Both the position numbers and the translations under genes were made by a program. The notes under the pieces were generated by a model. The model ran no database searches. It was not told the DNA's origin and was given only the letters and a program-made list of their open reading frames with translations. From Quadrisphaera setariae (GTDB taxonomy: Bacteria; Actinomycetota; Actinomycetes; Actinomycetales; Quadrisphaeraceae), in NCBI RefSeq assembly GCF_008041935.1, contig NZ_VKAC01000007.1, positions 124,001 to 188,000 of the forward strand: a DNA stretch of 64,000 nucleotides, in the 5' to 3' direction. Positions 45,934-60,433 of this stretch are shown one piece after another. The number at the start of each line of letters is the position of its first letter. The stretch's first letter is position 1.

Positions 45934-46146
45934 GTGCCTGAGCCCACTGACAGCGCCGCCGAGCAGACCCCGGACGCCCCAGCACCCGAGGAGACACCGG
46001 CCGAGGCGCAGAAGCGCCGCTTCAAGGAGGCTCTGGAGCGCAAGCAGGGCGTGAAGCACCCGCACGACGAGGTCGCCGGCGGCAAGAACCTCCACGGCCG
46101 CGGCGGCGCCACGGCCCGCCAGGAGTTCCGCCGCAAGTCTGGCTGA
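45934..46146 (+). CDS. DUF5302 family protein (island integration target)
   Basis: Small, highly charged actinobacterial protein of unknown function. The GTG at 45934 has AGGAGG 5-6 nt upstream and gives 70 residues with an acidic Pro-rich N-terminus and the DUF5302 core AQKRRFKEALERKQGVKH...GRGGATARQEFRRKSG. Its last 22 bp (46125-46146) are repeated at 60412-60433, marking the gene end as the attachment site of the island that follows. The reading frame is preserved through the junction, so the protein stays intact after integration. Confidence 0.85.
   Translation: MPEPTDSAAEQTPDAPAPEETPAEAQKRRFKEALERKQGVKHPHDEVAGGKNLHGRGGATARQEFRRKSG
46125..46146. other. attL (left attachment repeat)
   Basis: 22 bp beginning GTTCCGCCGCAAGT and ending in the DUF5302 stop codon. 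It differs from the right copy at one base (T at 46140, C at 60427). The integrase stop lies 28 bp further in. Confidence 0.82.
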
Positions 46147-46173
46147 CCCGCACCGCTGCAGGTCAGAGCCTGT

Positions 46174-47304
46174 TCATGGGCGGCTAGTCCGCAGTTGGTC
46201 CGCAGGATTCTCAGCGCGGGGAGCCGCGTTGGCGAGGTCGTCGAGCAGACCCGCCAGCGCGGCCCGCGTCCGGTCCTCCGCGCTGGGCCAGAGGTGGCTG
46301 TAGGTGTTGAGGGTGACGCTGGCGCTGCGGTGGCCGAGCGCCCGCTGCACGGCGACGACGTCGACGCCGGCCGCGATGAGCCCTGACGCGAAGTAGTGCC
46401 GGAGGTCGTGAAGGCGCATGCCGGCGACACCGGCTCCGCGACGGGCCCGGCGCCAGCGGTCGCTGGCGATGTTCTGGGTGAGGGGTGCTCCCCCGCCCTC
46501 GGTCAGCAGCCACCGGGTTGGCTGGTTGCCCGGACGATGTTCCTGGACGTAGCGGGCGACGGCTTCGAGCAGGGCGTCGGGCACGGGGACGTCCCGCTCG
46601 CTGCCGTACTTCGGCGGGCTCTCGACGAGGGCTCCCCCCGTCGCCCGCGTGAGCTGGCGCCGCACGCGGACGGTGCGGCGCAGGAAGTCGACGTCGGCGA
46701 CCTGCAGGCCGCAGAGCTCCCCTAGTCGCAGGCCGGCGCCTGCGGCGAGCAGGACCATGACGCGGGTCTCGGGCTCAGCCGCGGCGGCGAGCACGGCCGC
46801 CACCTCCTCAGGGGCGGGGAGGCGCATCGCGGCCTCGGCTCGACGCACCCGCGGAAGCGTCACCCCAGCGCTCGGGTCTGAGACGAGGTGCCGGTCGAGG
46901 ACGGCGGCGCGCAGCACTGAGCGCACGTTGTTGCGGCGGGTGCGGATCGTGCCCGGCGCCAGGCCCTGCTTGCGCATACCGGCGACCCAGGACTCGACGT
47001 GGCTGCGGCGCAGGCGCCCCAGCGGGAGGTCGCGGAAGGTGCAGGTCCTGACGGCGATATCGACGGCGCGGGCGGTGTTAGGTGCCCACACCTGCCGCTC
47101 GGACCATACGGCGTAGAACTCAGCCAGGGTCGTCTGGGCGGCCGCGGGGTCGACGTACTGGCCGGTGACGACCGCGGTGGTGACCTCGTCCAGCCACCGC
47201 TGGGCGTCGACCTTGCGGCGGAAGTGCCGAGACCGCTCCTTGCCGTCCTCGTCGCGGAACCTGGCCCGCCACATGCCGTCCGAGCGCTTGGCGATGCTGG
47301 ACAT
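46174..47304 (-). CDS. int: Tyrosine site-specific integrase
   Basis: Phage/island-type tyrosine recombinase, 376 residues, complete. An N-terminal AP2-like arm-binding domain (KRSDGMWRARFRDEDGKERSRHFRRKVDAQRWL) and a SAM-like core-binding domain precede the catalytic domain. The catalytic residues are visible: Arg in AGLRLGELCGL, Lys in SPPKYGSERDVPVP, the HxLR box LHDLRHYFASGL, His in LGHRSASVTLNTYSH and the nucleophile Tyr in that segment. It reads toward attL and is the obvious enzyme for this island. No excisionase is recognised nearby. Confidence 0.92.
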   Translation of the reverse strand: MSSIAKRSDGMWRARFRDEDGKERSRHFRRKVDAQRWLDEVTTAVVTGQYVDPAAAQTTLAEFYAVWSERQVWAPNTARAVDIAVRTCTFRDLPLGRLRRSHVESWVAGMRKQGLAPGTIRTRRNNVRSVLRAAVLDRHLVSDPSAGVTLPRVRRAEAAMRLPAPEEVAAVLAAAAEPETRVMVLLAAGAGLRLGELCGLQVADVDFLRRTVRVRRQLTRATGGALVESPPKYGSERDVPVPDALLEAVARYVQEHRPGNQPTRWLLTEGGGAPLTQNIASDRWRRARRGAGVAGMRLHDLRHYFASGLIAAGVDVVAVQRALGHRSASVTLNTYSHLWPSAEDRTRAALAGLLDDLANAAPRAENPADQLRTSRP

Positions 47305-47855
47305 CGTCAGCCTCGCCCGAGCGGCTCAGCTCGCTGGAGGTCGGGGATTTCGAGCGTCTCGGCCTTGCTCCGGTGGCGCATCGGCGGAGTGTCCGGGCTG
47401 CATCGCCCGCGGTAGCTGGATCAGCGCGAAGCTGTGGAAAACGCACCCCTGTGCACACGCCTGTGGAAAGACGCCCGCAGTGACACACAACAGGAACGGT
47501 GCCGGTTGCCCGCGCCCATTGGCGACTGTGCCAGCGAACCCGCTCGTGCAGCCGCTAGGGAGCCCGCAAGGCACCACCTTCCCGACCGCGCCGGTCGGGA
47601 AGGCTCGCCGCAGGCAACCGGAGTGGGTCACCACTCCGTATATCTTGCTCCGCCCCGAGACCCGGGCCGCGCCCCCATCGCGGTGGTCTCGGGCTTCGAT
47701 CGGGCCAAGGGCAGATCTTCGATGGCTTCGAGACGGCGCTCAGGACGGGACGGGAAGCGACCCCAAGAACGTATATAGGGCGGGATATTGAGGAGAATCC
47801 CGCCCTATAACGGTAACCCCACCCGAATATCGGACGCGGCGCCTACCGTCGGGCC
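47305..47855. other. 551-bp non-coding region with two hairpins
   Basis: No convincing gene. It holds a GC hairpin (arms 47577-47587/47593-47603, 5-nt loop) and a less GC-rich 13-bp stem-loop (47774-47786/47797-47809, 10-nt loop) directly before the promoter of the recombinase pseudogene. The second could be an operator or a terminator. A short open frame at 47434-47778 lacks a ribosome site and coding character. Confidence 0.55.
47844..47849 (+). promoter_or_regulatory. -10 hexamer TACCGT, leaderless start of the recombinase pseudogene
   Basis: TACCGT, 6 nt, then the GTG at 47856; same geometry as moxR. No Shine-Dalgarno sequence. Confidence 0.45.
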
Positions 47856-49096
47856 GTGGCCCTCCCCGCCCGTCCCCTTGTCGACACGGACATCGACGTC
47901 GACGCCGCCGAAGTTGTCAGCTCTGACAGCGTGGTCGACTGTGACCTCAAGTCCAGGTTCAGCGCGGGTCCCGCCTTCGACGCGGGTGCGCGCCACCGTG
48001 CCGGTGTCGACGGCGACGACCTCAACGACGGGGACGTCCTCACCGACGCAGCGGTCGAGGGGCGGCTGCAACTCGCCTCGGCCGGCGTGCTGCCGGAACT
48101 CGACGGCTTGCCCGAGCGCGAGGCCGCCCACGCCCGCGCCGCCCGGGCGGAGAACACCTTGCGCGCGTACCGCTCGGACTGGGCCGAGTTCGCCACCTGG
48201 TGCTGCGCCCACGACGCCGACCCGATGCCGGCCACACCGTCGGCGCTGACCGGCAATCTGGTCGCGCTGGCCCAGGCCGGCGCAAGGGTCGGCACCCTGT
48301 CCCGGCGCCTGTCCTCGATCAAGTTCGCCCACGCCAGCGCCGGGCATCCCGCCCCCGCCACCCACCCCCGCGTCATCACGGTGTGGGAAGGCATCCGCCG
48401 CGTCCACGGCGCCCCGCCGAGCAGGCGAGCCCGCTGATGCCGCCACTGCTGTTCGACGCCCTGGCAGCGTGCCCGACCACCCGGACCTGGCCGACCGTCA
48501 CCCCCGCGACGGGACAACGCCGCAGGTCGGGACTACGCGCTGACAAGCCGGACCTGATTGGGGCCCGCGACCGCGCACTGCTGCCGGTCGGTTTCGTCGG
48601 CGCCCTGCGCCGCAGAGAACTCACGGCCCTGGAGACCGACGACGTCGCCGAGCACCCCAGCGGCCTGGTCCTGTCCCTACCCCGCTTGAAGACCAACCAG
48701 ACCGGCGAGCACGCCGAGCTCGTCGTCCTACCCCGCACCGGCAACCCCGACCGCTACCCCGACCTCGCGCTGCAGCGCTGGCTGGAACTCGCCGGCCTCA
48801 CCGAGGGCCCGGTGTTCCGCGGCGTGACCAAGGCCGACCGCGCAAGTGCGCGGTACCTGCACCCGGAATCGGTGACCACCCTGGTCAAGGGCGCCCTAGC
48901 CCGCACTGGCGCCCCCACCACCGGGCACAGCGGGCACTTCCTGCGGGCGGGGTTCGTCACCTACGCCCACCTGCGCGGCTCGAGCGACCGGGCCTTCGCC
49001 CACCAGACCTGGCACCGCTCGATGGCCTCTCTGGGCGGGTACGTGCGAGTACCCCACGCGTGGACCGACAACGCGGCAACGAGCTCGAGTCTGTAA
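47856..49096 (+). pseudogene. Tyrosine recombinase/integrase, disrupted by a frameshift
   Basis: Two adjacent frames together make one recombinase. The first (47856-48437) carries the SAM-like domain (ENTLRAYRSDWAEFATWCCAHDADPMPATPSALTGNLVALA...VWEGIRRVHGAPP). The second carries EQASPLMPPLLFDALAACP, GFVGALRRRELTAL (Arg), LPRLKTNQTGEHAELVVLPR (Lys), HSGHFLRAGFVTYAHLRGSSDRAFAHQTWHRSMASLGGYVRV. The join needs one extra base near 48415-48424, within CCGCCGAGCAG. Family members read straight through this point (GAPP-x-QA-x-PLMPP). It is either a decayed integrase or a sequencing indel; programmed shifting is unlikely. The leaderless-type promoter is intact. Confidence 0.82.
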
Positions 49097-49257
49097 CGCC
49101 CGTCACCCTCGACATCCAACGACATGAAGACCCACACACAGCCAATGGCGTCCTTCGGTGTCCCAGAAGTTCCACAACGATCACATGGTCGAAATAGCCT
49201 GGGTCGAGGCCGCGCGTTGCTCGCTCGTGCGGGTACCTAGCCACGGGGTGGACAGAA

Positions 49258-51198
49258 GTGCATCTTGCCAGTCTTCGACTTACAAATTTCCGCGCCTGCC
49301 GGGACACTCACGTGCGCTTCGGCTCCAATCTGACGGTTCTCGTGGGTGAGAACGCATCAGGCAAGAGCGCCATCATTGACGCCCTGAGACTCGCGACATA
49401 CCAGGTAACGGGCCGCCAGTCGGCCTACCTATCGCCAGACTCCGACCTGAGTCGAGGCAGCGACACCGGAACGCCGATCGAGATTTCTACCCGGTACAGC
49501 GGTCTCACCGAACCTGAGCAGGCCTTGTACCTTCCCAAGCTCGTCGATACACATGATGACCTCGTGTATACCGCCACCTTCGCTACCGACCCAACCGTCC
49601 CTCGCAGGAGCGTCACGTCGTGGTCGGTGGGAGAGGTGGGCGTGGAGGATCCCGAACCAGCCTCCCGACGGCGCATTGCTCATGTCTACCTCCCCCCACT
49701 GCGTGACGCTTTACGAGATCTTGACGGCCACGACCAGACACAGTTGTTCGAAGTCTTGCGGATACTGGTAGGCGGTGACGAGGAGAAGGAGTCAGCATTT
49801 GTTGACGCTGCCGCGATCCATCTCGCCGCCATCGCCAAGCTAGATCTGGCGGCCGATGCTCGACAGCAGATCCAGGACTACTACAGCCAAGCTGTTCCGC
49901 CCAGTCGCGAACATCACATCGCACTAAACCACAGAGACCGCAGGCTCCGTCATCTCGCGGGCTTGCTACGCATCCAACTGTCTGAGACAGACTTCCCCGA
50001 AAGCGATATCGCAACTACGGGTCTCGGCTACGCCAGCCTGCTCTACATTTCGATGATCGTGCTGCAGCTCGTCAAGGCTCGCGAGAGCGATCTGACCCTG
50101 CTGCTCGTGGAAGAGCCAGAAGCACACCTGCATCCGCAGCTCCAGCTGGTCCTCTTGGACTTCCTACGTGGGCAAGCGGAAACCAGCGGAGACGATGCCG
50201 GGGGGCGACAGCCGGCGGGCAAGGTGCAGGTCATCGTGACGACCCACTCACCCACCCTTGCTAGCACGGTTTCAGTTCGAAATATTGTGGTCGTTGCTCG
50301 CGATAGCGAACGGCAGGCATGGGGGACCGTGACCACGGCGTTGAAAGATCTACCTATGGCTGCCAGCGACTTTCGTAAAGTCGACCGCTACCTTAATGTC
50401 ACTCGAGCTGCATTGTTGTTTGCCCGAGTCATCGTGCTGGTCGAGGGCATTGCAGAGATGCTCCTCCTGCCGGCCCTGGCGAGGCATTACGTCAAGGCAG
50501 AGACCCACGGACGAGCAGATGCAGATGCCGAGTTCAAACGGCGGATGCGGCAATTCCACAGCGCAACGTTTATCAACGTCGAAGGAGTCGACTTCGCCCC
50601 CTACCTCAACCTTCTTCTCCTGGGCGGGCCAACAAGGGTCGATCGGGTCGTCGTCGTGACCGACGGTGACCCCAGCACGAGGAACCCCTTGGGCGCCGGT
50701 GAGAGTCGGCGCACCGCCTATGAGGAGCGCTTTCCAGAGCACGTCACCGCCGGACGACTCATCGTCAGCGTCGGTGGAACGACCTTGGAAGCGGAGATGT
50801 ATCGCCACCCGGAGAACGAGGAGCGACTCAAGACCGCTTTTCTAAGTTTGCACCCGCAGTCCGTCAGCCAGTGGGATGCGCTAGTGAAAGCGGTCGGCGA
50901 CGGCGACGAGTCGACACGAGCCAGCATCTTCGCCCAAGCCATCAAACCGAGAAGCAGGGCCCAGCGTTCGACCGGCGAGACTTCGGAAGAGACAGAAGTC
51001 GCTTCACCGAGACCAATCCACCTAGACATCGGCAAGGGCGACTTTGCCCACGTGATCGCTGAGGCTCTGGAGGCTGACACCCAGTCGCGAATGCGCATAC
51101 CCGCCTACCTCCTAGCCGCGCTAGAGGCAGCAACGAATCCCCAGGTCTCTGAACGCGCCGCCACAGCCGACCAAGCATCTCCAAGAGACGGCGGCTGA
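49258..51198 (+). CDS. OLD-family ATP-dependent endonuclease (AAA + TOPRIM), GajA-like
   Basis: ABC-type ATPase fused to a TOPRIM nuclease, the architecture of Gabija GajA and class 2 OLD proteins. The 646-residue product begins HLASLRLTNFRACRDTHVRFGSNLTVLVGENASGKSAIIDAL (Walker A 30-37). It has the signature-like ATTGLGYASLLYISM (253-267), Walker B LLLVEEPEAHLHPQ (281-294), the His switch TTHS (329-332), and TOPRIM elements ILVEGIAEMLLLPALA and VVVVTDGDPSTRN (DxD near 469-471). GC and codon use are visibly different from the chromosome. Only 4 bp separate it from the helicase gene, so they form one operon. The 161-bp region before it holds no gene. Confidence 0.9.
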   Translation: MHLASLRLTNFRACRDTHVRFGSNLTVLVGENASGKSAIIDALRLATYQVTGRQSAYLSPDSDLSRGSDTGTPIEISTRYSGLTEPEQALYLPKLVDTHDDLVYTATFATDPTVPRRSVTSWSVGEVGVEDPEPASRRRIAHVYLPPLRDALRDLDGHDQTQLFEVLRILVGGDEEKESAFVDAAAIHLAAIAKLDLAADARQQIQDYYSQAVPPSREHHIALNHRDRRLRHLAGLLRIQLSETDFPESDIATTGLGYASLLYISMIVLQLVKARESDLTLLLVEEPEAHLHPQLQLVLLDFLRGQAETSGDDAGGRQPAGKVQVIVTTHSPTLASTVSVRNIVVVARDSERQAWGTVTTALKDLPMAASDFRKVDRYLNVTRAALLFARVIVLVEGIAEMLLLPALARHYVKAETHGRADADAEFKRRMRQFHSATFINVEGVDFAPYLNLLLLGGPTRVDRVVVVTDGDPSTRNPLGAGESRRTAYEERFPEHVTAGRLIVSVGGTTLEAEMYRHPENEERLKTAFLSLHPQSVSQWDALVKAVGDGDESTRASIFAQAIKPRSRAQRSTGETSEETEVASPRPIHLDIGKGDFAHVIAEALEADTQSRMRIPAYLLAALEAATNPQVSERAATADQASPRDGG

Positions 51199-51202
51199 TG
51201 CC

Positions 51203-52972
51203 ATGACGCAACAGCTCACCGATGAACAGCGAGCAGCGCTCGAGCCTGGCGTACGTCTGATTGAAGCTGGCCCTGGGGCGGGGAAGACCCTGACAGTCGC
51301 GGCACGCTTCCGGCAACGGGCCGTCGACGGGCGCGGTGTCGCCCTGCTGTCCTTCACCAACCGAGCCATCGACGTTGCTCGATCGCGGTGTCGCGACACT
51401 CCTTCTCTACTCGAGCCGCCTCACTTCATTGGAACCTTTGATCAGTTCCTCCACCGTTTCGTCACTACACCCGAGATCTTGCGCCGGTTCAGGCAGAGGC
51501 CTCAATATGTCGCGTCGTGGCGCGACCTCACACATGACCTTCGGCGCATTCGTCCGGGTAAGAGTGACGACGGTTTCGAGCTAACGGACTTCCTGGTCGA
51601 TGACGAAGGTCGCCAGGTACTTGACGTTGACCGCCTGAGCTGGAAGGCGCGGCAACTATGGACCCGCCTGTCCCCGGCCCACCAACGATGGGTCACCACA
51701 CAGGCACACCGCCGCCTCGGCAGACTGCGCGAAGCGCACGTGTACGACTGCGATGGAGCTCGTCGATTAGCGTTCGAGATCTTATCTGTCCCTGACAACG
51801 TCTACTTGCGCCGCCTAGCGGCACGATTCGACGAGGTGATCGTCGACGAACTCCAAGACTGCAACCAGGTTGACCATGACCTCCTTCGACTCCTGCGCCA
51901 CGCGGGTCTGCATGTTGTGGGTGTGGCCGACCCGGATCAAGCCATCTATGACTTTCGGCGACCTCAAGCCAGCCTGTCCGTAGATCCATACCTCGCCTAC
52001 CGGGGCTCGCTGGCCGCGCACGAGATTGCCCCTCTGACCATCTGTCACCGTTCGACGCCGGTCATCTGCGACCTCGTCAGCAGTCTGCGGGCCATCAGCC
52101 AGGATCGCGTAGTTTCTGGTGACGACCCACCCAGCGGTTCCAATGTCGTCCACGTCGTCATAGGCAACGACGCAACAGCTGGCATCACGGCGATGCAGGT
52201 TATGCGTGACCTTGGAATCAAGCCGGAGAACACATGGATCCTTGCGGCCACGCGTCGGCAAGCGCGCTCAATCAGCCAACGGTCACCGGACTCAACCAGT
52301 GGCGGTACCGCAGGAGCAGCGCTGCTCAGCGCCTTGAACCAACTTCGCCTCAGGGAGTCGGCTCATGTCCGCGCGAAGTCTATCTTCGATGTTGAGACTT
52401 TTATGCTCCGCATGCTCGACTGGCCCGCAGATGAGGTGCTACACACGCGCGCAGAGCAGCTGGACCGGCTTGAGTTGTCCACGGAAGACCTTCGTATAGC
52501 TGCCTTGCGCCTGGTGTTCGCATCGAAAACCTGGGATGACAAGGACTCCTGCACGAGGAGCCTGAAATCTATTATGAGCACCTTCGCCTCACCCCTTCCT
52601 TTAGGACTCGTTGCCAACTACGGGACTAAAGCTCAGATTCGTACCACGGCTTGGTCCGAGTGGGTATCGTCAATGCCAGGCAGCGAGGTGAACGACTTAT
52701 CTAGGGTGCGGTCTAGCCATATCCATGGAGTCAAGGGTGAAGAGTTCGAGGCTGTCATTCTGTCCCTGGTAGCTCAACGAAGGGGTGGAGATCACGCGTT
52801 GCAGGACTGGGACGATGGTCGCGACAGTGAACAACGACGCGTCCTCTATGTCGGCGCGAGTCGGGCTCAACGCTGCCTCGTGCTTTTAACCCCGCCGAGC
52901 AAGAAGGCCCAGGTGCTCCACCTCTTGCGCAGATCTGGAGTCGCTTTCGAGGTGTACAGCACGTCGACGTAA
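51203..52972 (+). CDS. UvrD/PcrA-family helicase, GajB-like
   Basis: SF1 helicase partner of the preceding OLD nuclease. The 589-residue product carries the whole motif set: AGPGAGKTLT (22-31), LLSFTNRAIDVARSR, GTFDQFLHRF, VIVDELQDCNQ (212-222), GVADPDQAIYDFRRP, CHRSTPVICDL, SHIHGVKGEEFEAVILSL and RRVLYVGASRAQRCLVLL. In Gabija systems GajB senses or processes DNA ends and works with GajA against phages. The pair here fits that two-gene layout. The lower-GC composition continues to its end at 52972, consistent with recent transfer of the pair as a unit. The 183 bp after it hold nothing recognisable. Confidence 0.9.
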   Translation: MTQQLTDEQRAALEPGVRLIEAGPGAGKTLTVAARFRQRAVDGRGVALLSFTNRAIDVARSRCRDTPSLLEPPHFIGTFDQFLHRFVTTPEILRRFRQRPQYVASWRDLTHDLRRIRPGKSDDGFELTDFLVDDEGRQVLDVDRLSWKARQLWTRLSPAHQRWVTTQAHRRLGRLREAHVYDCDGARRLAFEILSVPDNVYLRRLAARFDEVIVDELQDCNQVDHDLLRLLRHAGLHVVGVADPDQAIYDFRRPQASLSVDPYLAYRGSLAAHEIAPLTICHRSTPVICDLVSSLRAISQDRVVSGDDPPSGSNVVHVVIGNDATAGITAMQVMRDLGIKPENTWILAATRRQARSISQRSPDSTSGGTAGAALLSALNQLRLRESAHVRAKSIFDVETFMLRMLDWPADEVLHTRAEQLDRLELSTEDLRIAALRLVFASKTWDDKDSCTRSLKSIMSTFASPLPLGLVANYGTKAQIRTTAWSEWVSSMPGSEVNDLSRVRSSHIHGVKGEEFEAVILSLVAQRRGGDHALQDWDDGRDSEQRRVLYVGASRAQRCLVLLTPPSKKAQVLHLLRRSGVAFEVYSTST

Positions 52973-53155
52973 CCAGGGGCGGGCCTGCGGTAGTCGCATA
53001 ACCGAATCACCATAGGCTGAGCTATGCATGCGTTGGCGGCACTGTTCCCGCGCGCTGAAGGCGCCGCAGGCGTCCGTCGCCCTGACTTAGCATCGCCGTC
53101 GCGAGTACTCTGACGATCGCAGTACGACAATCGCTACTAACGCCGGATCTATCTT

Positions 53156-53506
53156 TCAGTTGTCGGGCGCATCATCGACAGCAATGAGCCGACCGCCCGA
53201 GTCGCCATCGGAGTAGCGCCACAGGGGAAGCGCCTGATCGGGGTCTGCATGAGGCCCGCGCAGCATGCGGTATCCCCCTCCTTCCCGCCTCCACAGGCCT
53301 GCTTTGACCAGCCGGTCGATGGCGTCCGCAGCAGAAGAGGCATCCTCATCGGCGGCCTCCAGAGCCTCGTCGGGGACATAGCCCGTTCGCCCGTGGGCGG
53401 AGGTCCAGGAACCCATTCGCGTGAACAGTCCCGTGGCGGCGAGACCCGCAGGAGCGCGCAACGGCTCCAGCTCGAAGAGGTCAGAGTGGATGTCGAAGGT
53501 CCCCAC
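53156..53506 (-). CDS. Winged-helix-like phage/island protein, 116 aa
   Basis: The GTG at 53506 begins GTFDIHSDLFELEPLRAPAGLAATGLFTRMGSWTSAHGRTGYVPDEALEAADEDASSAADAIDRLVKAGLWRREGGGYRML. This layout resembles small replication-associated proteins of actinobacterial phages, in which a 'GSW...GFVP...LV.AGLW' pattern forms a winged helix. Longer upstream frames overlap the divergent gene and are not preferred; AGGAG lies 14 nt before the chosen GTG, so the exact start is uncertain. There is no direct evidence of function. It may be a remnant of a replication module. Confidence 0.6.
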   Translation of the reverse strand: MGTFDIHSDLFELEPLRAPAGLAATGLFTRMGSWTSAHGRTGYVPDEALEAADEDASSAADAIDRLVKAGLWRREGGGYRMLRGPHADPDQALPLWRYSDGDSGGRLIAVDDAPDN

Positions 53507-53635
53507 AGAGTCAGTGTGGCTCCTACGGGCAAGATAGGCACCGAGACACCCGAGTGATGGCGGCACCGATGAACGCCGACTTCGAGGCGCCGAGCTTGGC
53601 TCGCTGCGCCGCGGGTGACGGTCGACCATGGACGC

Positions 53636-54448
53636 ATGAGCGAGATCCGGCTGGGTCCTGGCCAGTCACTACGGCTGGCCTTCGAGATGATGCAGGTAGA
53701 ACCCGGCCCCGGTGCACACCGCCTTTCCCTGAACTACCGCGCCGAGCCGGTCAACCTGCCTGTCGGAGCGGTGCTGGTGCTCGGCGGCACGGCAGTGCTG
53801 CACGCCGGGGGGTGGTTGGGCACTCTGCATCCGGAAGCAGCCATGCCAATAAGCGTCAATGCGGTCTACCCGCGACCAACGGTCCTGACAACGACTATCA
53901 GCGATGGACAGTTGGCTGGGCTCGAAGCAGCGCGCGACGGCCGAGACCTTGAACTGCTCATCACTTTGAACGCCACGTTGACCGGTGCTCCAGAGCTCGA
54001 CTACCCCAGCAGCAGCACCCAAGACTGGCTGCGGATCCCGGGACCTGAATGGGCGCGCCACGCCGAACGGCTCGGCGCGTTGGTCACCGTGCCCCTTCGC
54101 GTCCCCCTGCCGCTCGGCGATCCCCACAGCACGCGAGCCCGAGCTGGTCTGCACCTACAGGCCTCGATGCGCGCCATCAGCGACGGCCGCCACCACGAGG
54201 CCGTCCGTGAGGCGCGCATCGCGCTCGAGCTACACGGCGAGGTATCCCCACCTGCGAGCTACTCCAAAGCCGAAGCCGCACGCACCCGCGACCTGCCCCA
54301 ACGCTTCGCCGTCTTGCGCGATTCGGTGTACGCGGTGGCCAGTGGCGCCGCCCACGGCGATGAGGTGACCGAGAGCTTCGAGTACTCCCGATCCGACGCC
54401 ATGACCGTCGTGGCTGCGGTGGCTGCCTTGATGCAGCGGTCACCTTGA
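53636..54448 (+). CDS. Unknown island protein with possible C-terminal HEPN-like helical domain
   Basis: Not recognised with confidence. The 270-residue product (ATG at 53636) has a beta-rich N-terminal half (LRLAFEMMQVEPGPGAHRLSLNYRAEPVNLPVGAVLVLGG...PAPE-like strands). A C-terminal helical part follows: MRAISDGRHHEAVREARIALELHGEVS and RFAVLRDSVYAVASGAAHGDEVTESFEYSRSDAMTVVAAVAALMQR. The Ser/Ala-His-Gly-x-x-F-x-x-x-R-x-DA pattern recalls HEPN or Abi-type C-termini in defence proteins. It sits between the Gabija-like pair and the exonuclease module. No signal peptide or membrane helix. Confidence 0.55.
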   Translation: MSEIRLGPGQSLRLAFEMMQVEPGPGAHRLSLNYRAEPVNLPVGAVLVLGGTAVLHAGGWLGTLHPEAAMPISVNAVYPRPTVLTTTISDGQLAGLEAARDGRDLELLITLNATLTGAPELDYPSSSTQDWLRIPGPEWARHAERLGALVTVPLRVPLPLGDPHSTRARAGLHLQASMRAISDGRHHEAVREARIALELHGEVSPPASYSKAEAARTRDLPQRFAVLRDSVYAVASGAAHGDEVTESFEYSRSDAMTVVAAVAALMQRSP

Positions 54449-54484
54449 GTGGCCTTGCCTACCCGGCCATCACGGACAGCGGGG

Positions 54485-55657
54485 TCACAGGGACGTCCGC
54501 CGGCTGATCTGTTGATCAGGGTTGCTGCGCGCTGTCTGTGGACCCGTGCCGGCGTGAGCGGTTCCCCGGCGCCCCGTCGTGCCTGTCTCGTTCAAGAGCA
54601 TAAGCAGGTCGCTCTCGCACAGCACCTCGATGTCCTGCCCCTTCGCGCGTTGAGCGGCAGCTCGAGCGGCCTTGCCGGTCGCGAAGTCAGCCGGGTCTGC
54701 GCCCTTGAAGCCGTCACCGATGACCAGCACATTGGTCCGCTTCGTCACGTTGCTCTCGGGGATTGCCCCCAGAGCCGCGACCTGCGCCCAGACGTCCTCG
54801 CGGCGCAGCGACAGCGCCCCGGTGAAGACCATCACCTGGCCAAAGAGGCGGTGGTGGGGGTCAGCGTCGGGGTTGGCCGCAGGCGGTAGCGGCTTGCCGG
54901 AGGATCCTGGCGCGTAGGTGCGGTGGCAGCCTTGCCAGGTGTCCGGGTCCACCTGGCCGAGGAGGACCAGCAACTTGGTCGCCAGCGAGCTCAGCGACGG
55001 CGCCTGCTGCAGCGCAGCCAGGGCGAGCACGATGCCGGCGGCAGCCCCGGCGTCGGCGGCGGCGTCGTGGTGGCTCATCAGGTCAACGCCCAGGGCGTCC
55101 GCGACCATCGGCAGCCGGTAGCTGATCAGGGACAGCGCACGGCGGGCCATCACCAGGGAGCAGGCGTACTGCAACCGCGGCCAAGCGAGGCCGGCAGCGT
55201 CGCAGGCATCGCGCAGCGCGCCGATGTCGAAGGCGGCGTTGTGCGCCACCACCGACAGGTCGCCGACCACGGCGATCAGGCGCTGCAGGCTCGCTTCGAA
55301 GGAGTCGGCGTCGGCGACGTCGGCCGGCCCGATGCCGTGCAGGGCGGTGTTATAGGCGTCGAACCAGTTCAGTGAGGCTGCGGGCTTGACCAGCCAGGCG
55401 TGGCGTTCGGTGATGCGGCCGGCGCGTACGACGACCAGGCCGATCGCGCAGATTGAACCGCGGTGGTGGTTGGCGGTCTCCACGTCGACGGCGACGAAGT
55501 CCAGCCCCGTGCTCATCGGTGCGGCGTCGCCGTGATCGGCACCGGTTGGCGCGGAGGCACCCGGCTCGACGGTCGCCGCGGAGGTCGACGCTGTCATGGC
55601 CGCAGCAGCCGTGTGGACGAGGCTGGAGTGCGCTGCGCGGGCGTGCGGGATGGCCAT
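54485..55657 (-). CDS. DnaQ-like 3'-5' exonuclease with C-terminal BRCT domain
   Basis: DEDDh exonuclease fused to BRCT, as in bacterial nick-processing proteins. The 390-residue product has FVAVDVETANHHRGSICAIGLVVV (ExoI Asp-x-Glu), VAHNAAFDIGALRDACDAAGL (ExoII) and SHHDAAADAGAAAGIVL (ExoIII His-Asp). After a Pro-rich linker comes a BRCT domain, LFGQVMVFTGALSLRREDVWAQVAALGAIPESNVTKRTNVLVIGD. The ATG at 55657 shares a base with the stop of the upstream DUF6218-like gene. An internal ATG at 55516 (MSTGLDFVAVDVET) is the domain start and an alternative. The role is probably DNA repair or interference within the island. Confidence 0.85.
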   Translation of the reverse strand: MAIPHARAAHSSLVHTAAAAMTASTSAATVEPGASAPTGADHGDAAPMSTGLDFVAVDVETANHHRGSICAIGLVVVRAGRITERHAWLVKPAASLNWFDAYNTALHGIGPADVADADSFEASLQRLIAVVGDLSVVAHNAAFDIGALRDACDAAGLAWPRLQYACSLVMARRALSLISYRLPMVADALGVDLMSHHDAAADAGAAAGIVLALAALQQAPSLSSLATKLLVLLGQVDPDTWQGCHRTYAPGSSGKPLPPAANPDADPHHRLFGQVMVFTGALSLRREDVWAQVAALGAIPESNVTKRTNVLVIGDGFKGADPADFATGKAARAAAQRAKGQDIEVLCESDLLMLLNETGTTGRRGTAHAGTGPQTARSNPDQQISRRTSL

Positions 55658-56280
55658 CACGCGGCCGCGGGCTCGGTCAGTCGGATCGGGAAGGGCCGGG
55701 CCTCGTGGTCGCGGGCGGCGCGCAGGTGCTTGCGGGAGATGCGCACCACTTCCAGCGCTTCCCAGCAGGTGCCGAGCCGCTCGACCCAGCGGGCCACGCG
55801 CAGGGTGTCTACGGTCAGCACGGACGCACCGTCCTCGTCCGTCGCAGCGGCAGCCTCGCTGGCCGTAGGGCTCGGCGCCGACTCGGTGGAGTGGTTGATG
55901 GGCCGTGGCGGCGTCGGCCACTGCGGGTCAACGATCGTCTTGGCGCGGGCGGTGGGCAGGCCCGCGACGTAGTCCTCGTGCACGGCCTGCAGCGCGTCTC
56001 GCTCGCTGAGCACCTCCGCCTGGCAGGCGTCGATGTCCACACCAGGCAGCTCCGGCAGGTCGGCGGCAGCGACGAGGGCCTGCGCGCCTGGGCAGACCAG
56101 CAGATAGCGACCGGCCACGAGCTTCGCGAGGTGGGCGGGGTCGGTAGGTACCACCCAAGCCCCAGCCATCCGGCTGACGCCGGCGTTGCCGTCCAGGGCC
56201 ACCCACCACACGGCCATGTGGTCGCGGTCGGCGTTGATGACTGCGACGACGGGCTGACGATGGTCTTGCTGCTCCCCCAT
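55657..56280 (-). CDS. DUF6218-like protein
   Basis: 207-residue protein resembling the DUF6218 family, an uncharacterised actinobacterial group seen beside exonuclease-BRCT genes. The N-terminal half is a compact alpha/beta domain (PVVAVINADRDHMAVWWVALDGNAGVSRMAGAWVVPTDPAHLAKLVAGRYLLVCPGAQAL). A Pro/Ser/Ala linker follows, then a helical C-terminal part (LRVARWVERLGTCWEALEVVRISRKHLRAARDHEARPFPI). It overlaps the exonuclease start (TGATG) and so forms a two-gene unit with it. Family name from memory; function unknown. Confidence 0.65.
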   Translation of the reverse strand: MGEQQDHRQPVVAVINADRDHMAVWWVALDGNAGVSRMAGAWVVPTDPAHLAKLVAGRYLLVCPGAQALVAAADLPELPGVDIDACQAEVLSERDALQAVHEDYVAGLPTARAKTIVDPQWPTPPRPINHSTESAPSPTASEAAAATDEDGASVLTVDTLRVARWVERLGTCWEALEVVRISRKHLRAARDHEARPFPIRLTEPAAA

Positions 56281-56495
56281 CGCGTCAGGCTGTCACTGCA
56301 CGCCCGTCCACACGGCCAATTTGGTGAACAGCGGCGCGTCTACCTGGCCCCCCAGATCCGCACCGGCCGACGTCAACGGGCTGCGATACCTAGAGACAGA
56401 TGCGGCGCTCCCACGCGCCGCTGCCGCCCGTAAATCAGCACCGAAGTGAAAGCGCGCACCACTGGCGTTTCCCCTCAGAGAGCGGAGGCGGTGGC

Positions 56496-56501
56496 TACCG
56501 T
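56496..56501 (+). promoter_or_regulatory. -10 hexamer TACCGT, leaderless start of the gene at 56508
   Basis: TACCGT, 6 nt, then ATG. It shows that the leaderless pattern also occurs on island genes. Confidence 0.45.
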
Positions 56502-56507
56502 CGCGGG

Positions 56508-57164
56508 ATGGGGTTGCTGGACCGGCTGCTCAAGCGTCGTCCGAAGGCGTTGACCGTCTCGATGGTGGAACAGGTGCAAGTGGAACGGGCGCCGATGGAG
56601 CCCCTCACCAAGGTGCTCAGCGCCGTCGCGCCAGCCGCAGCGCACTTACCGGTGCTGCTGGCACGCACGGCACCGCAAACCGCATCCACCGCGGTGGAGC
56701 CGTCTGCGCTGGTGAGCGTCGAGGACCGGCGCGAGCACCGGCACGCGGCTCGCCAGGCCCACGTCGCGGACGCGCAGCACCGACACGAGCAGGAGCTGCA
56801 GGGCAAGGGCGAGGGCGCCGACGCTCACGCCGCCCGCGGCCGCACCGTGCGCGGTAAGCCGTACTACCTGTGGGTGGAGACCATCGAGCAGCTCAAGCGG
56901 GAGGCCCGCCACGAAGAGGTGCTGGCGCTGCTGTACGAGTGCATTGCTGCCGCGGAGAGGGACCGTCGCGGTGGAGCTCCGGCGCCGGCGTACACCGAGC
57001 ACGCCGCGATCGTGCACCGCAAGATGGGCGACCACGACGCCGAGATCGCTGTGATCAAGCGGTGGCTGCGACTGGCGCCGGAGAACGAGCCCAAGCTGGC
57101 CCGGATGAGCGACCGGCTCACGAAGGCGTCGGCCCTTCAGGAGCGCAAGCGCGTGCCATCTTGA
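56508..57164 (+). CDS. Unknown protein with TPR-like C-terminus
   Basis: 218-residue product starting MGLLDRLLKRRPK at an ATG 6 nt after TACCGT. The middle is a His/Gln/Arg-rich helix, likely coiled coil (DRREHRHAARQAHVADAQHRHEQELQGKG). The C-terminal part (YLWVETIEQLKREARHEEVLALLYECIAAAERDRR...YTEHAAIVHRKMGDHDAEIAVIKRWLRLAPENEPKLARMSDRL) looks like two to three TPR-type helical pairs. Not assigned to a family. The stop overlaps a TTG that may start the next gene (TTGA). Confidence 0.6.
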   Translation: MGLLDRLLKRRPKALTVSMVEQVQVERAPMEPLTKVLSAVAPAAAHLPVLLARTAPQTASTAVEPSALVSVEDRREHRHAARQAHVADAQHRHEQELQGKGEGADAHAARGRTVRGKPYYLWVETIEQLKREARHEEVLALLYECIAAAERDRRGGAPAPAYTEHAAIVHRKMGDHDAEIAVIKRWLRLAPENEPKLARMSDRLTKASALQERKRVPS

Positions 57165-58153
57165 GTCCTCGACGACGGCCTTGGCGCCTGAACGACATCG
57201 ACGGCGAGGCAGGTTGCTACCGGACGACGAGTGACCGCACCAGCCGGGTCCTCCAAGCCCACGTCCTTCTCGCCAGTCCAGTCCTGCTGGCCGGGACGGC
57301 CGCCGGGGGACCGAACTGGACCGACGTCACATCCGCGTGGGCCGCCGTGGCTGCCGCCGTTTTCACGCTCTTCACGTTCCTGGTCGCGGTGTGGGCGGTC
57401 GTGTACGCCAAACGTCAAGTGCAAGGGGCCCGTGAGCAGCTGGAGGAGGCACGCTCCTTGCGCCGGGAGCAAGCACAGCCCTACGTGGTCGCCTACGCGC
57501 GCACCCGCGATGAGGTCTCCCCCCACCAACTCGAGGTGGTGCTGGAGAACCTCGGCGCCACCGGAGCGCGCAACGTGGTGGTGACCTCCGCCCCGCCACT
57601 GGTGCGCACGGATCCAGCAACGGGAGGCGCTGAACCCGTGGCCCTCCCTTACCTCCTACCTTTCCTCGCCCCTTCCCAGCGCTGGCAGACCTACTGGGAC
57701 AGCGGCCCCGAGCTGGTCGCCAGCAACTTGCCTCAGCGCTTCGAGGTGACCGTCGCCTACGACGACAGCTTCGGTGACCACCACCAAGAGGTCTTCGTCT
57801 TGGACTGGAGCGTCTTCGTGCCACGACTGTTTAGCGGCGAACGGACCGTCCACCACTTAGGCAAGGCCCTGGAGGACCTGGCCAAGACGATGAAGGCCTG
57901 GTCGTCCAAGAACGAGGTGGTGCGCGTTGCCACCTACGACGGCGAGGACTTCGACCGCAAGCGGGCTCGTGAGGCGAGATCAGCGGCGCACCGCCGCGCG
58001 AAGAGGGGTCGTGCGCACCAGGAGCTGGTCGAGCGTCTCCTGCCTGCAGAGGCTTCTGCCGTTGTCCCCGATGAAGTCACCGAGGACGCTTCGCCCGCCT
58101 CAGAGGCCGCTTCCGGCCCGGAGCCCTTTCGTTCTCCCTCCTCGGAGGCTTGA
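57161..58153 (+). CDS. Unknown membrane-anchored protein with coiled coil
   Basis: Start uncertain: the only in-frame candidate before the membrane helix is a TTG at 57161 that overlaps the preceding stop. From there the product has 330 residues. A membrane helix, WAAVAAAVFTLFTFLVAVWAVVYA (about 67-90), is followed by a short coiled coil (KRQVQGAREQLEEARSLRREQ), a beta-rich soluble domain (QPYVVAYARTRDEVSPHQLEVVLENLGATGARNVVVTSAPP) and a charged helical tail. Similar 'TM plus soluble' proteins are common on actinobacterial islands, without assigned function. Confidence 0.55.
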   Translation: MSPRRRPWRLNDIDGEAGCYRTTSDRTSRVLQAHVLLASPVLLAGTAAGGPNWTDVTSAWAAVAAAVFTLFTFLVAVWAVVYAKRQVQGAREQLEEARSLRREQAQPYVVAYARTRDEVSPHQLEVVLENLGATGARNVVVTSAPPLVRTDPATGGAEPVALPYLLPFLAPSQRWQTYWDSGPELVASNLPQRFEVTVAYDDSFGDHHQEVFVLDWSVFVPRLFSGERTVHHLGKALEDLAKTMKAWSSKNEVVRVATYDGEDFDRKRAREARSAAHRRAKRGRAHQELVERLLPAEASAVVPDEVTEDASPASEAASGPEPFRSPSSEA

Positions 58154-58273
58154 GCCTCACTGGTCCGCTGGGGGAACGCCGCTGGGTGCAGTGACGGGTC
58201 CAGCCCGGCGTGCGGGCCTCGTGTAGCTGGCCTTCGGCGTCGTGATGTCCGACCCCTGTGCTGGGGTGAGCTG

Positions 58274-59146
58274 GTGAGCGACCCGTTGGCCGGGCTGTCC
58301 CGCCATGAACGTTTGGCATGCCGGGTCGTCGAGCGGGTTCTCGGCGCCACCGCACAGGCGTGGGACGTCCAGGGGCGACAGAACGCCGTCGACGCGATGT
58401 TGACCCTTCCTGACGGGCGTTGCGCCGCCTTGGAGATCACCCGCGTCGACACCGGACAGGGCCTGCACCTCGAGGGGGAGCTCGCCCGGAGCGGGTTCCA
58501 CTTGCCCGCCGTCGGGCAGTGGTGGTGGGACATCACGCTGGAGTCGGTGCATGACCTCCCCGAGCTTCGGGAGCGCTACGCCCGCTTGATCACCCTGTCG
58601 GAGTCCCTGGGTGCCATCCGTCCTGAGCACATCCGTTGGCAGACCGGTCTACACAACGCCGACTTAACCTGGCTGGCCGAGCACCCCGGAGTGTCGATGT
58701 TCGGGTATCCCGACATCCCTGCGCGTGACGGGGACCGGGTGCGGGACGTGATGGTGATGCCCGGGGGTAGCGGCGGGATGGTCGACCACAGCATGTCCGG
58801 GTTGCGCGCGATGCTGGAGGAACTATTCGCAGGCGCCAGGCACATGCTCAAGCACCTGGCCAAGACCGCTGCGGCGCCAGCAGACGAGCGCCACCTGTTC
58901 GTGGTCCTGCACTCCTCGGCACTGCCGTTCGCCATGAGCGACGCACTGGCGCGCAGCAGTGAGGTACCGAACGAAGAGCCACCGCTGGTCGAGGGCATCA
59001 CGCACTTCTGGCTGGCCCCGCCGTACTCCGAGCGAATCCTGTTGTGGAGCTCCGGACACTGGCAGCAGTTCTTCCCCTACGACGCGGCCGGAGAACCACG
59101 CCGTGGAGGCCGCGGCGGACACGCACCCGAGCACGGAGCGACGTGA
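58274..59146 (+). CDS. Unknown protein, possible PD-(D/E)xK-like nuclease partner of an HNH protein
   Basis: 290-residue product from the GTG at 58274. The N-terminal region LACRVVERVLGATAQAWDVQGRQNAVDAMLTLPDGRCAALEITRVDTG resembles the strand-loop-strand core of restriction-like nucleases (Asp40, Glu54), but the usual Lys is Thr56, so activity is doubtful. The rest is mixed alpha/beta with WWWDITLESVHDLPELRERYARLI and HLFVVLHSSALPFAMSDAL and has no family I recognise. The stop overlaps the HNH gene start (TGATG), so the two are translated together. Confidence 0.6.
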   Translation: MSDPLAGLSRHERLACRVVERVLGATAQAWDVQGRQNAVDAMLTLPDGRCAALEITRVDTGQGLHLEGELARSGFHLPAVGQWWWDITLESVHDLPELRERYARLITLSESLGAIRPEHIRWQTGLHNADLTWLAEHPGVSMFGYPDIPARDGDRVRDVMVMPGGSGGMVDHSMSGLRAMLEELFAGARHMLKHLAKTAAAPADERHLFVVLHSSALPFAMSDALARSSEVPNEEPPLVEGITHFWLAPPYSERILLWSSGHWQQFFPYDAAGEPRRGGRGGHAPEHGAT

Positions 59147-60129
59147 TGGCGGCTGACCGGTGCCCCTTCTGCCTGCACCCCATCGACGGCTCCCCCGAGG
59201 CGCGTCAGCCCTCGCGTGACCACGTCTTCCTCCAGGCTCTGGGCGGCGTTGCCACCACCCCGGTGTGCAAGACCTGCAACGACACCTTCGGCGCTGACGT
59301 CGAGGGTCGCCTGCTACGCCCGAGGAAGATCCTCAGCATCGCCAAGGTCGCGGCGGGACGGATGGACTCCGCCCCGGGGTACCTGAAGGCCGATGGGTCG
59401 CGGGGAGTCTTCAACTTCCGAGACGGCACCGTGCAGTTCTCTCCCCCGCTCACCTCCTTCGCCACGAAGACCGAGGAGGGTCTGCACATCCGCGCGGCGC
59501 CAGATCAGATTGAGGGCGTCGTACCCCATGTCCGCCGCTGGGCCACCAAGCACGGTGGCGACCCCGATGCTGCCGAGGCACAACTGCGTGCTGCTCCCCG
59601 CGGCAGCCTGGGCAATGACCTGTTCGTCATGGACCACGACGTCGAGCTCGATCAGTTGGCCCGCTTGGCCGCAAAAGTGGCGCTGGCGGCTGGGTGCCGG
59701 GTCAGCGACGACTTCCGCGATGCCCAGCCGCTCGCTGACAGCCTGCGCGAGGTCGCGTGGGGGCGAGCAGAAGCCGACCTCCTCTTCGGGCTAGAACCCC
59801 TGCAGCACATCGACGCCCTGCTCGCTGAGTTGACGGCGAAAGCGGTGGGCGAGGTCGCACCGCGCTTCGCCCCGGTGGCCCTGGAGAGTCAGGTGGTCTT
59901 CTGCCCCCTCGGTGACAGCACGATCATCTTCGTCCACCTGGTGGGCTTCCCACTCACCTTCGGCGGCATGAAGTGCCCCGGTACTCAGCCCGCGCGGTGG
60001 GGGCACACGCCGGTCTTGGTGCGCGACGCGCCCGGTAGCCCACAGATCGTGGCCCTGCAGGACTGGTTGCTTCCACGCCTGCATGCTCAGCCGGACTGGC
60101 GCGACGGTGAGGTTGAGAGCGCGCAATAG
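59146..60129 (+). CDS. HNH endonuclease family protein
   Basis: Zinc-binding HNH nuclease domain at the N-terminus of a 327-residue protein. Cys6/Cys9 (RCPFC), Asp25-His26 (SRDHVFLQALGG) and Cys41/Cys44-Asn45 (VCKTCNDTFGADVEG) give a complete HNH with a treble-clef zinc knuckle. The remaining 270 residues are a domain of unknown function, probably for target binding (FVMDHDVELDQLARLAAKVALAAGCRVSDDF...). GGAG lies 7 nt before the ATG. It forms an overlapping pair with the gene at 58274 and is the last gene before attR. The domain call is good; the biological role is unknown. Confidence 0.8.
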   Translation: MAADRCPFCLHPIDGSPEARQPSRDHVFLQALGGVATTPVCKTCNDTFGADVEGRLLRPRKILSIAKVAAGRMDSAPGYLKADGSRGVFNFRDGTVQFSPPLTSFATKTEEGLHIRAAPDQIEGVVPHVRRWATKHGGDPDAAEAQLRAAPRGSLGNDLFVMDHDVELDQLARLAAKVALAAGCRVSDDFRDAQPLADSLREVAWGRAEADLLFGLEPLQHIDALLAELTAKAVGEVAPRFAPVALESQVVFCPLGDSTIIFVHLVGFPLTFGGMKCPGTQPARWGHTPVLVRDAPGSPQIVALQDWLLPRLHAQPDWRDGEVESAQ

Positions 60130-60335
60130 GTCCTGGGCCTGTGCTCGTCGGTGCGGTCCGCGCCGTTGCGGTCTGCTTGTTGTTGTCCAGCGGCAAGGCA
60201 ACCGATCGAGCAACCGAATCTTGGTCAACCCAGCTCGCACCGACACGAGCGCCGCGGTCTGCAACGAGGGCTTTCCGAACACCGGTCGGTCCGCGCCTGG
60301 TCCGCAAGAAGGTCGCGAACGACCGTCACCACCCA

Positions 60336-60356
60336 ACGTTTGCCAACGGCAAACGT
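60336..60356. other. Hairpin just inside attR
   Basis: ACGTTTGCC and GGCAAACGT pair around AAC. It lies 55 bp from the right attachment repeat and could be an integrase accessory or arm site, or a terminator of the HNH operon. No other gene is seen between 60130 and 60411. Confidence 0.5.
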
Positions 60357-60411
60357 GCAGTTCAGAGGCACTTTCTGCCAGATCGGCCCTGCTCAGAACT
60401 GAGCACAACTT

Positions 60412-60433
60412 GTTCCGCCGCAAGTCCGGCTGA
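60412..60433. other. attR (right attachment repeat)
   Basis: 22-bp copy of the DUF5302 3' end (FRRKSG and stop), 21 of 22 bp identical to 46125-46146. Bases on either side do not match, which defines the repeat edges. Confidence 0.82.

Follow-up and report, generated by a model that had tools for sequence, protein, structure and literature searches.

The 64,000-nt stretch analyzed here (hereafter, the window), from the actinomycete Quadrisphaera setariae, contains a DUF5302 gene (45934..46146, plus strand; PF17227, E 3.6e-11), the single DUF5302 match in this genome, whose 3' end very probably serves as the attachment site of an integrative genomic island. The gene ends in a 22-bp sequence (46125..46146, plus strand; GTTCCGCCGCAAGTCTGGCTGA) that has the stop codon at its end, and a second 22-bp copy lies on the same strand at 60412..60433, differing from the first by a single mismatch at base 16, T to C. 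These copies, referred to as the attL core (T form) and the attR core (C form), lie exactly where an earlier note on this DNA had placed a 22-bp repeat with one mismatch. No further core copy with up to five mismatches was found on either strand of the window, and ~5e-7 chance matches with at most one mismatch would be expected (64 kb, one strand, first-order Markov model). Just inside the left copy is a complete tyrosine integrase gene (46174..47304, minus strand; 376 amino acids; PF00589, E 4.7e-30; phrog_1 integrase, E 1.6e-68), as the note had also reported, although the distance from the gene end to the core measures 27 bp rather than 28 bp. The codons at attL read AAG TCT GGC TGA, versus AAG TCC GGC TGA in the C form, a synonymous change, and the DUF5302 C-terminus (FRRKSG) is identical with and without an intact element. 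Thus, the DUF5302 protein would be restored unchanged upon insertion; that islands can restore their target genes is documented in PMC10111431 and PMC12884075. A tRNA or other RNA gene was considered as the target and rejected, the window having no tRNA and no Rfam match at gathering scores.

Comparison of six Quadrisphaera genomes (G000 to G005, where G000 is the genome of the window) revealed the same two-core arrangement across most of the genus. Specifically, a 21-base core pattern with base 16 left free had two exact matches in each of G000, G001, G002, G003, and G005 and a single one in G004, which has no intact element. Allowing up to three mismatches yielded four extra places, two in G000 and two in G001, a number no greater than chance, given the 28 places matched across all six genomes by a backwards control. 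The integrase is located at DUF5302 in five of the six genomes, being intact in G000, G001, G003, and G005, with the latter three carrying copies at the same place that are 96-97% identical to that of the window, and interrupted in G002, where the insertion is a DDE transposase gene (L101:15307-17340). Loci recovered by the integrase search included those of Quadrisphaera granulorum, Quadrisphaera sp. INWT6, a strain filed as Streptomyces sp. NP160, and an Actinomycetales metagenome-assembled genome. In G004, ~19% of the integrase is left after DUF5302, as a decayed 3' fragment (L099:9238-9524) preceded by two copies of the short repeat GTGATCATGG. The island, its two ends, and the role of DUF5302 as attachment gene, all proposed in the earlier note, are supported by these five congeneric genomes: none had the same gene order without interruption, and none had both repeats in the absence of an island, G004, which lacks an intact element, having one core. 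Further, both ends are on one contig in G003, 39.2 kb apart and with flanks as in the window, including the same nucleoside-hydrolase flank, for which the match starts 139 bp past attR.

The base at core position 16 distinguishes the two ends. It is T in all five attL cores and C in four of the five attR cores (A in G003), while the single core of G004 has C. Across the order, 396 genomes were compared with a pattern built on the DUF5302 3' end, which occurs in 93 of them, whereas a backwards control occurs in two. There were two copies in four Quadrisphaera genomes, one each in G003 (where the second copy misses this pattern by its last base) and G004, and one each in 87 non-Quadrisphaera genomes, the latter being counted by pattern, with DUF5302 identity not confirmed for all. 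A TCN codon occupies the site in 44 of these 87 genomes, as TCC in 33, TCG in 11, and TCT in none (counted by eye). Because attL has T in every element, G004 has C, and TCT was not seen outside the genus, the T at position 16 most likely came with the element.

Both arms of the element also carry a doubled heptamer. GTCCGCA-N4-GTCCGCA occurs in the left arm, within the integrase 3' end (46187..46204, plus strand), and in the right arm, where the first copy ends in G (60289..60306, plus strand). With this variant of the first copy allowed, the doublet has two matches in the window versus 0.01 expected, and its copies start at +62/+73 (left) and -123/-112 (right) relative to the core start. All five elements have the left-arm doublet. 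In the right arm, G002, G003, and G005 have an exact doublet, and one copy is altered in G000 and in G001; none was found beside the core of G004. The arm domain of the integrase probably binds these doublets, a reading suggested by the precedent of a doubled motif in the HE-PICI integrase clade (PMC10111431). The right-arm doublet falls within a conserved right terminus (far arm; 60276..60411, plus strand) that is 81-91% identical in the four other elements, such that ~157 bp through attR are conserved in all five and similarity ends at the core. This terminus contains two inverted repeats, CGTTTGCC/GGCAAACG (60337-60355), of which the inner TTGCC/GGCAA is constant in all five elements, and TGCTCAG/CTGAGCA (60390-60405), constant throughout. 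Elsewhere in G000, ~74 bp of a small contig (L138:4098-4172, contig C27) are 77% identical to the right terminus and possibly represent the end of another element.

We consider it highly probable that this locus is a 14.3-kb integrative genomic island whose integrase recombines a 22-bp attP core with the DUF5302 3' end. The integrase would join the core of the element (attP) to the same sequence at the end of the gene, with its arm domain binding the doubled GTCCGCA motifs in both arms. The element would thereby bring its own last DUF5302 codons (TCT for TCC), leaving the encoded protein unchanged, and the displaced host 3' end would remain as attR at 60412-60433. The ends and their conservation, the single core where no intact element is present, the variable cargo, and the T form of attL can be read directly from the DNA; active recombination, binding at the arm sites, excision, and transfer are steps that we infer. 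Several observations weigh against this interpretation. None of the six Quadrisphaera genomes has a strictly empty DUF5302 site, as G004 retains its integrase remnant, and whole elements were seen only in G000 and G003, the two ends being on separate contigs in G001, G002, and G005. The attR of G003 has two changes relative to that of the window, and the sequence past attR differs between G000/G003 and G001/G005 (only 297 bases are available for G002). Specifically, the right flank of G001 and G005 is that of G004, where it lies ~4.9 kb after DUF5302, and the same flank is found ~24-25 kb past attR in G000 and G003. The region following DUF5302 is thus variable beyond the island itself. Finally, integrase divergence does not exceed that of the flanking genes in G000/G003 (p = 0.16), G001/G005 (p = 0.76), and G000/G002 (p = 0.14), as vertical descent predicts.

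The main recognized cargo of the island is a predicted Gabija anti-phage system. Its genes, both on the plus strand, encode GajA, an OLD-family ATPase-nuclease (49258..51198; PADLOC GajA, 578.6 bits, E 4.6e-174; OLD-like TOPRIM, E 6.2e-06), and GajB, a UvrD-like helicase (51203..52972; PADLOC GajB, 390.2 bits, E 4.8e-117), and they adjoin one another, as expected of a Gabija system (an ATPase-TOPRIM protein beside a UvrD-like one). Among the NCBIfam models listed, none reached its cut-off for either protein, and matches to solved structures were weak, the best (E 7.8e-07) being to an OLD nuclease. Upstream is a second tyrosine recombinase broken in two frames (47856..49096, plus strand). Its first piece has an N-terminal SAM-like domain under the Pfam cut-off (E 0.00066), and its second piece, which matched no family, has what we take, by eye, to be recombinase-like C-terminal residues. 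The guanine-plus-cytosine (GC) content, in steps of 1 kb, is ~60% over the Gabija genes, ~65-74% in the remaining island, 72-78% in the left flank, and 68-72% in the right flank; the foreign composition claimed in the earlier note thus holds for the Gabija genes and does not extend to all of the cargo.

The rest of the cargo is less readily classified. A minus-strand gene (54485..55657, with the start codon being our own choice) encodes a DEDDh exonuclease (PF00929, E 4.1e-16; PDC-S48, E 8.9e-34; NF004844 and NF005932 under cut-off) whose C-terminal part, which we presume to be BRCT-like, matches the end of LigA. Hypothetical proteins without a family in Pfam, PADLOC, PHROGs, or NCBIfam are encoded on the plus strand at 53615..54448, 56400..57164, and 58274..59146. 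The hypothetical protein at 57032..58153 (plus strand, start uncertain) matches phrog_9607, of unknown function (E 6.5e-15), and nothing in the other three collections, while an HNH endonuclease-like protein (59146..60129, plus strand) matches PF14279 HNH_5 (E 3.3e-07) and nothing in PADLOC, PHROGs, or NCBIfam. The 39.2-kb element of G003 has other cargo, the 18 proteins scanned including GGDEF-EAL, GAF/ANTAR, and SpoIIE-type proteins, dehydrogenases, and IS21 genes, as well as a candidate defense protein, PDC-M03B (L124:6640-7404, E 2.2e-69). A prophage was rejected, as no capsid, tail, or terminase protein was recognized among nine island proteins compared with PHROGs (a scan outside of which GajA, GajB, and small open reading frames fall), as was an integrative and conjugative element, as Pfam scans of chosen cargo proteins (small frames again outside) recognized no relaxase or conjugation gene. 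No excisionase was recognized among the proteins scanned, all from frames of at least ~80-100 amino acids, so a small one may still be encoded in the island. Since no conjugation or virion gene was recognized among the scanned proteins, movement between cells would need outside help.

How the elements came to occupy the same site in most of the genus can be explained in more than one way. A single ancestral insertion, with the integrase inherited vertically as a near-core gene and the cargo between fixed ends swapped by other recombination, would account for the presence of the integrase at this position in five of six genomes and for the three pairs, among the five of ten genome pairs tested, in which integrase divergence equals that of the flanks. 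We regard it as unlikely, nonetheless, given the sister pair G003/G005, in which 89 of 1119 integrase sites differ (72 of them third codon positions), versus 60 of 2431 in two flanking genes (p = 4.5e-13), corresponding to 92% and 97-98% identity, respectively. The integrase copies of this pair, therefore, do not simply track their hosts. The pair G000/G001 also departs from the expectation (p = 0.0022), and, across the five genomes, the ten pairwise integrase identities are nearly equal (90.5-92.4%). The G003/G005 discordance thus rejects a fixed resident integrase, although only in part. Overall, we take these data to mean that related elements have repeatedly replaced one another or have arrived independently, although some pairs may reflect vertical descent.

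The interior of the island raises a separate question, namely, whether the Gabija block, along with the second recombinase and further genes, entered an original element at a later time. The dip to ~60% GC over Gabija relative to ~65-74% elsewhere in the island, the broken recombinase at 47856-49096, and the differing cargos of the window and G003 point in this direction, while the window lacks any inner copy of the 22-bp core within five mismatches. We give such a composite origin slightly less than an even chance, and it is compatible with an integrative island at DUF5302. That the repeat arose by chance, with the integrase being an unrelated neighbor, is, by contrast, extremely improbable: nothing was found in its support, the ~5e-7 matches expected speak against it, and it is already refuted by the repetition of the two-core arrangement in five genomes.

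Looking beyond the genus, we examined 75 integrase loci outside Quadrisphaera and sought targets for 44 of them; of the 31 left out, about two-thirds were partial matches, and the rest were near-full but distant or on short contigs. A named protein gene converges on the integrase at 24 of the 44 loci: ychF at 13, yajQ at eight, glutamine synthetase III at two, and metH at one, with six of the 24 being named by Pfam scan and the others by matching C-termini. Among the remaining 20, L044 adjoins a methyltransferase gene; L035, L037, and L057 have a neighbor without a Pfam family; and 16 were unscanned. The gap between target and integrase is <50 bp at 22 of the 24 (with one slight overlap), the exceptions being L030 (172 bp) and L059 (251 bp). 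A second core copy of 14-23 bp was present within the fetched DNA for nine of the 24, and the best second match for the other 15 scored 10 or less. On a tree from which L062, L068, and the interrupted L023 were omitted, targets clustered, requiring 15 changes versus 26.4 with shuffled labels (none of 200 shufflings as low). The wider clade appears to specialize in the 3' ends of conserved protein genes that are not related to one another, namely, ychF, yajQ, glutamine synthetase III, and DUF5302. A tRNA target was rejected for these relatives as well, since nine of 52 loci scanned had a tRNA and none had one within 500 bp of the integrase end. DUF5302 itself was rejected as a target outside the genus; the earlier note had suggested looking for integrases beside other DUF5302 genes, and none of this family was found within ~1.5 kb at 13 loci of other genera. 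Likewise, a DUF5302 profile (15 of 19 loci) gave no confident gene at the 75 integrase loci outside Quadrisphaera, the only match being L056 at E 0.062.

A sister island in the genome of the window connects DUF5302 to the predominant target of this clade. A ychF match is present in five of the six Quadrisphaera genomes (none in G005), and in G000 a second island of ~10 kb lies at the ychF 3' end (L208:1339-11303; C5:292839-302803). Its integrase is 68% identical to that at DUF5302 and is convergent with the target 3' end, and its core is GTTCCGCTTCAACGT. The arm layouts of the two islands are nearly alike: GTCCGCA starts at +62/+73 in both, and far-arm copies start at -122/-111 in the ychF island versus -123/-112 in the DUF5302 island. 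The ychF island differs in having its own core in ychF, a third far-arm copy at -100, and other cargo, consisting of weak Toprim and WhiB-like matches and otherwise unknowns. In G001, a related integrase (66%) is beside a copy of the ychF-type core, and the flank outside this copy corresponds to what follows ychF in G002. This G001 element (L210:4401 and L209; contigs C102 and C24) is apparently inverted, with reversed far-arm motifs adjoining ychF and the integrase at the other core.

In a second, unrooted tree, with six long-branch rows removed and two paralogs added, the ychF integrase of G000 is followed by that of G001 and then by the four DUF5302 integrases, each of these steps having starred support. 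Beyond them, an unstarred branch leads to five ychF users and three rows without a named target. Since the DUF5302 integrases nest inside ychF users, it is reasonably probable that the lineage switched from ychF to the unrelated DUF5302 within Quadrisphaera, retaining its arm sites and changing its core, with both forms now present in one genome. The ychF and DUF5302 cores have 10 of their first 12 bases in common (GTTCCGC..CAA, by raw count), so the switch may have needed few steps in core recognition.

As a kind of element, the DUF5302 island is already known: it is an ordinary mobile island with defense cargo. Like the ~1.75 million islands mapped by TIGER/Islander, of which 68% have tyrosine integrases, it bears an integrase and has precisely mapped ends (PMC12424338). 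In that collection, 43.4% of islands are in coding sequence and 33.8% in tRNA or tmRNA genes (PMC12424338), contrary to the earlier suggestion that protein-coding targets are the less usual. In Mycobacterium abscessus, seven of the 23 sites used by tyrosine integrases lie elsewhere than in tRNA and tmRNA genes (PMC10654092). The HE-PICI integrase clade resembles the one studied herein in having several protein-coding targets and a doubled tandem attP motif, but, in the portion of PMC10111431 concerned, its members are phage satellites of Enterobacteriaceae that target prophage late genes, whereas the integrases considered here target chromosomal genes, such as ychF and yajQ, at their 3' ends, and satellite genes were not recognized. 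The Gabija system also conforms to known ones, with adjoining GajA and GajB genes and strong PADLOC scores, its identification here being from sequence alone. Regarding the targets, a pneumococcal prophage site adjoins ychF, according to PMC8637289. DUF5302 looks new as a target gene: in agreement with the earlier note, it was not found as an island target in the literature searched, where a single paper contains the term, in a passage that deals with a different topic; the search did not extend to the TIGER/Islander flat file.

The interesting part of these findings is the likely change of target, from ychF to DUF5302. As the pattern in 93 of 396 genomes sampled in the order indicates, the end of the DUF5302 gene is conserved, and it could be tried as a landing site. 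Further, the coexistence in one genome of two 68%-identical integrases, whose arm layouts are nearly alike and whose targets differ, amounts to a small natural experiment on how such enzymes may choose, and change, their core sites.

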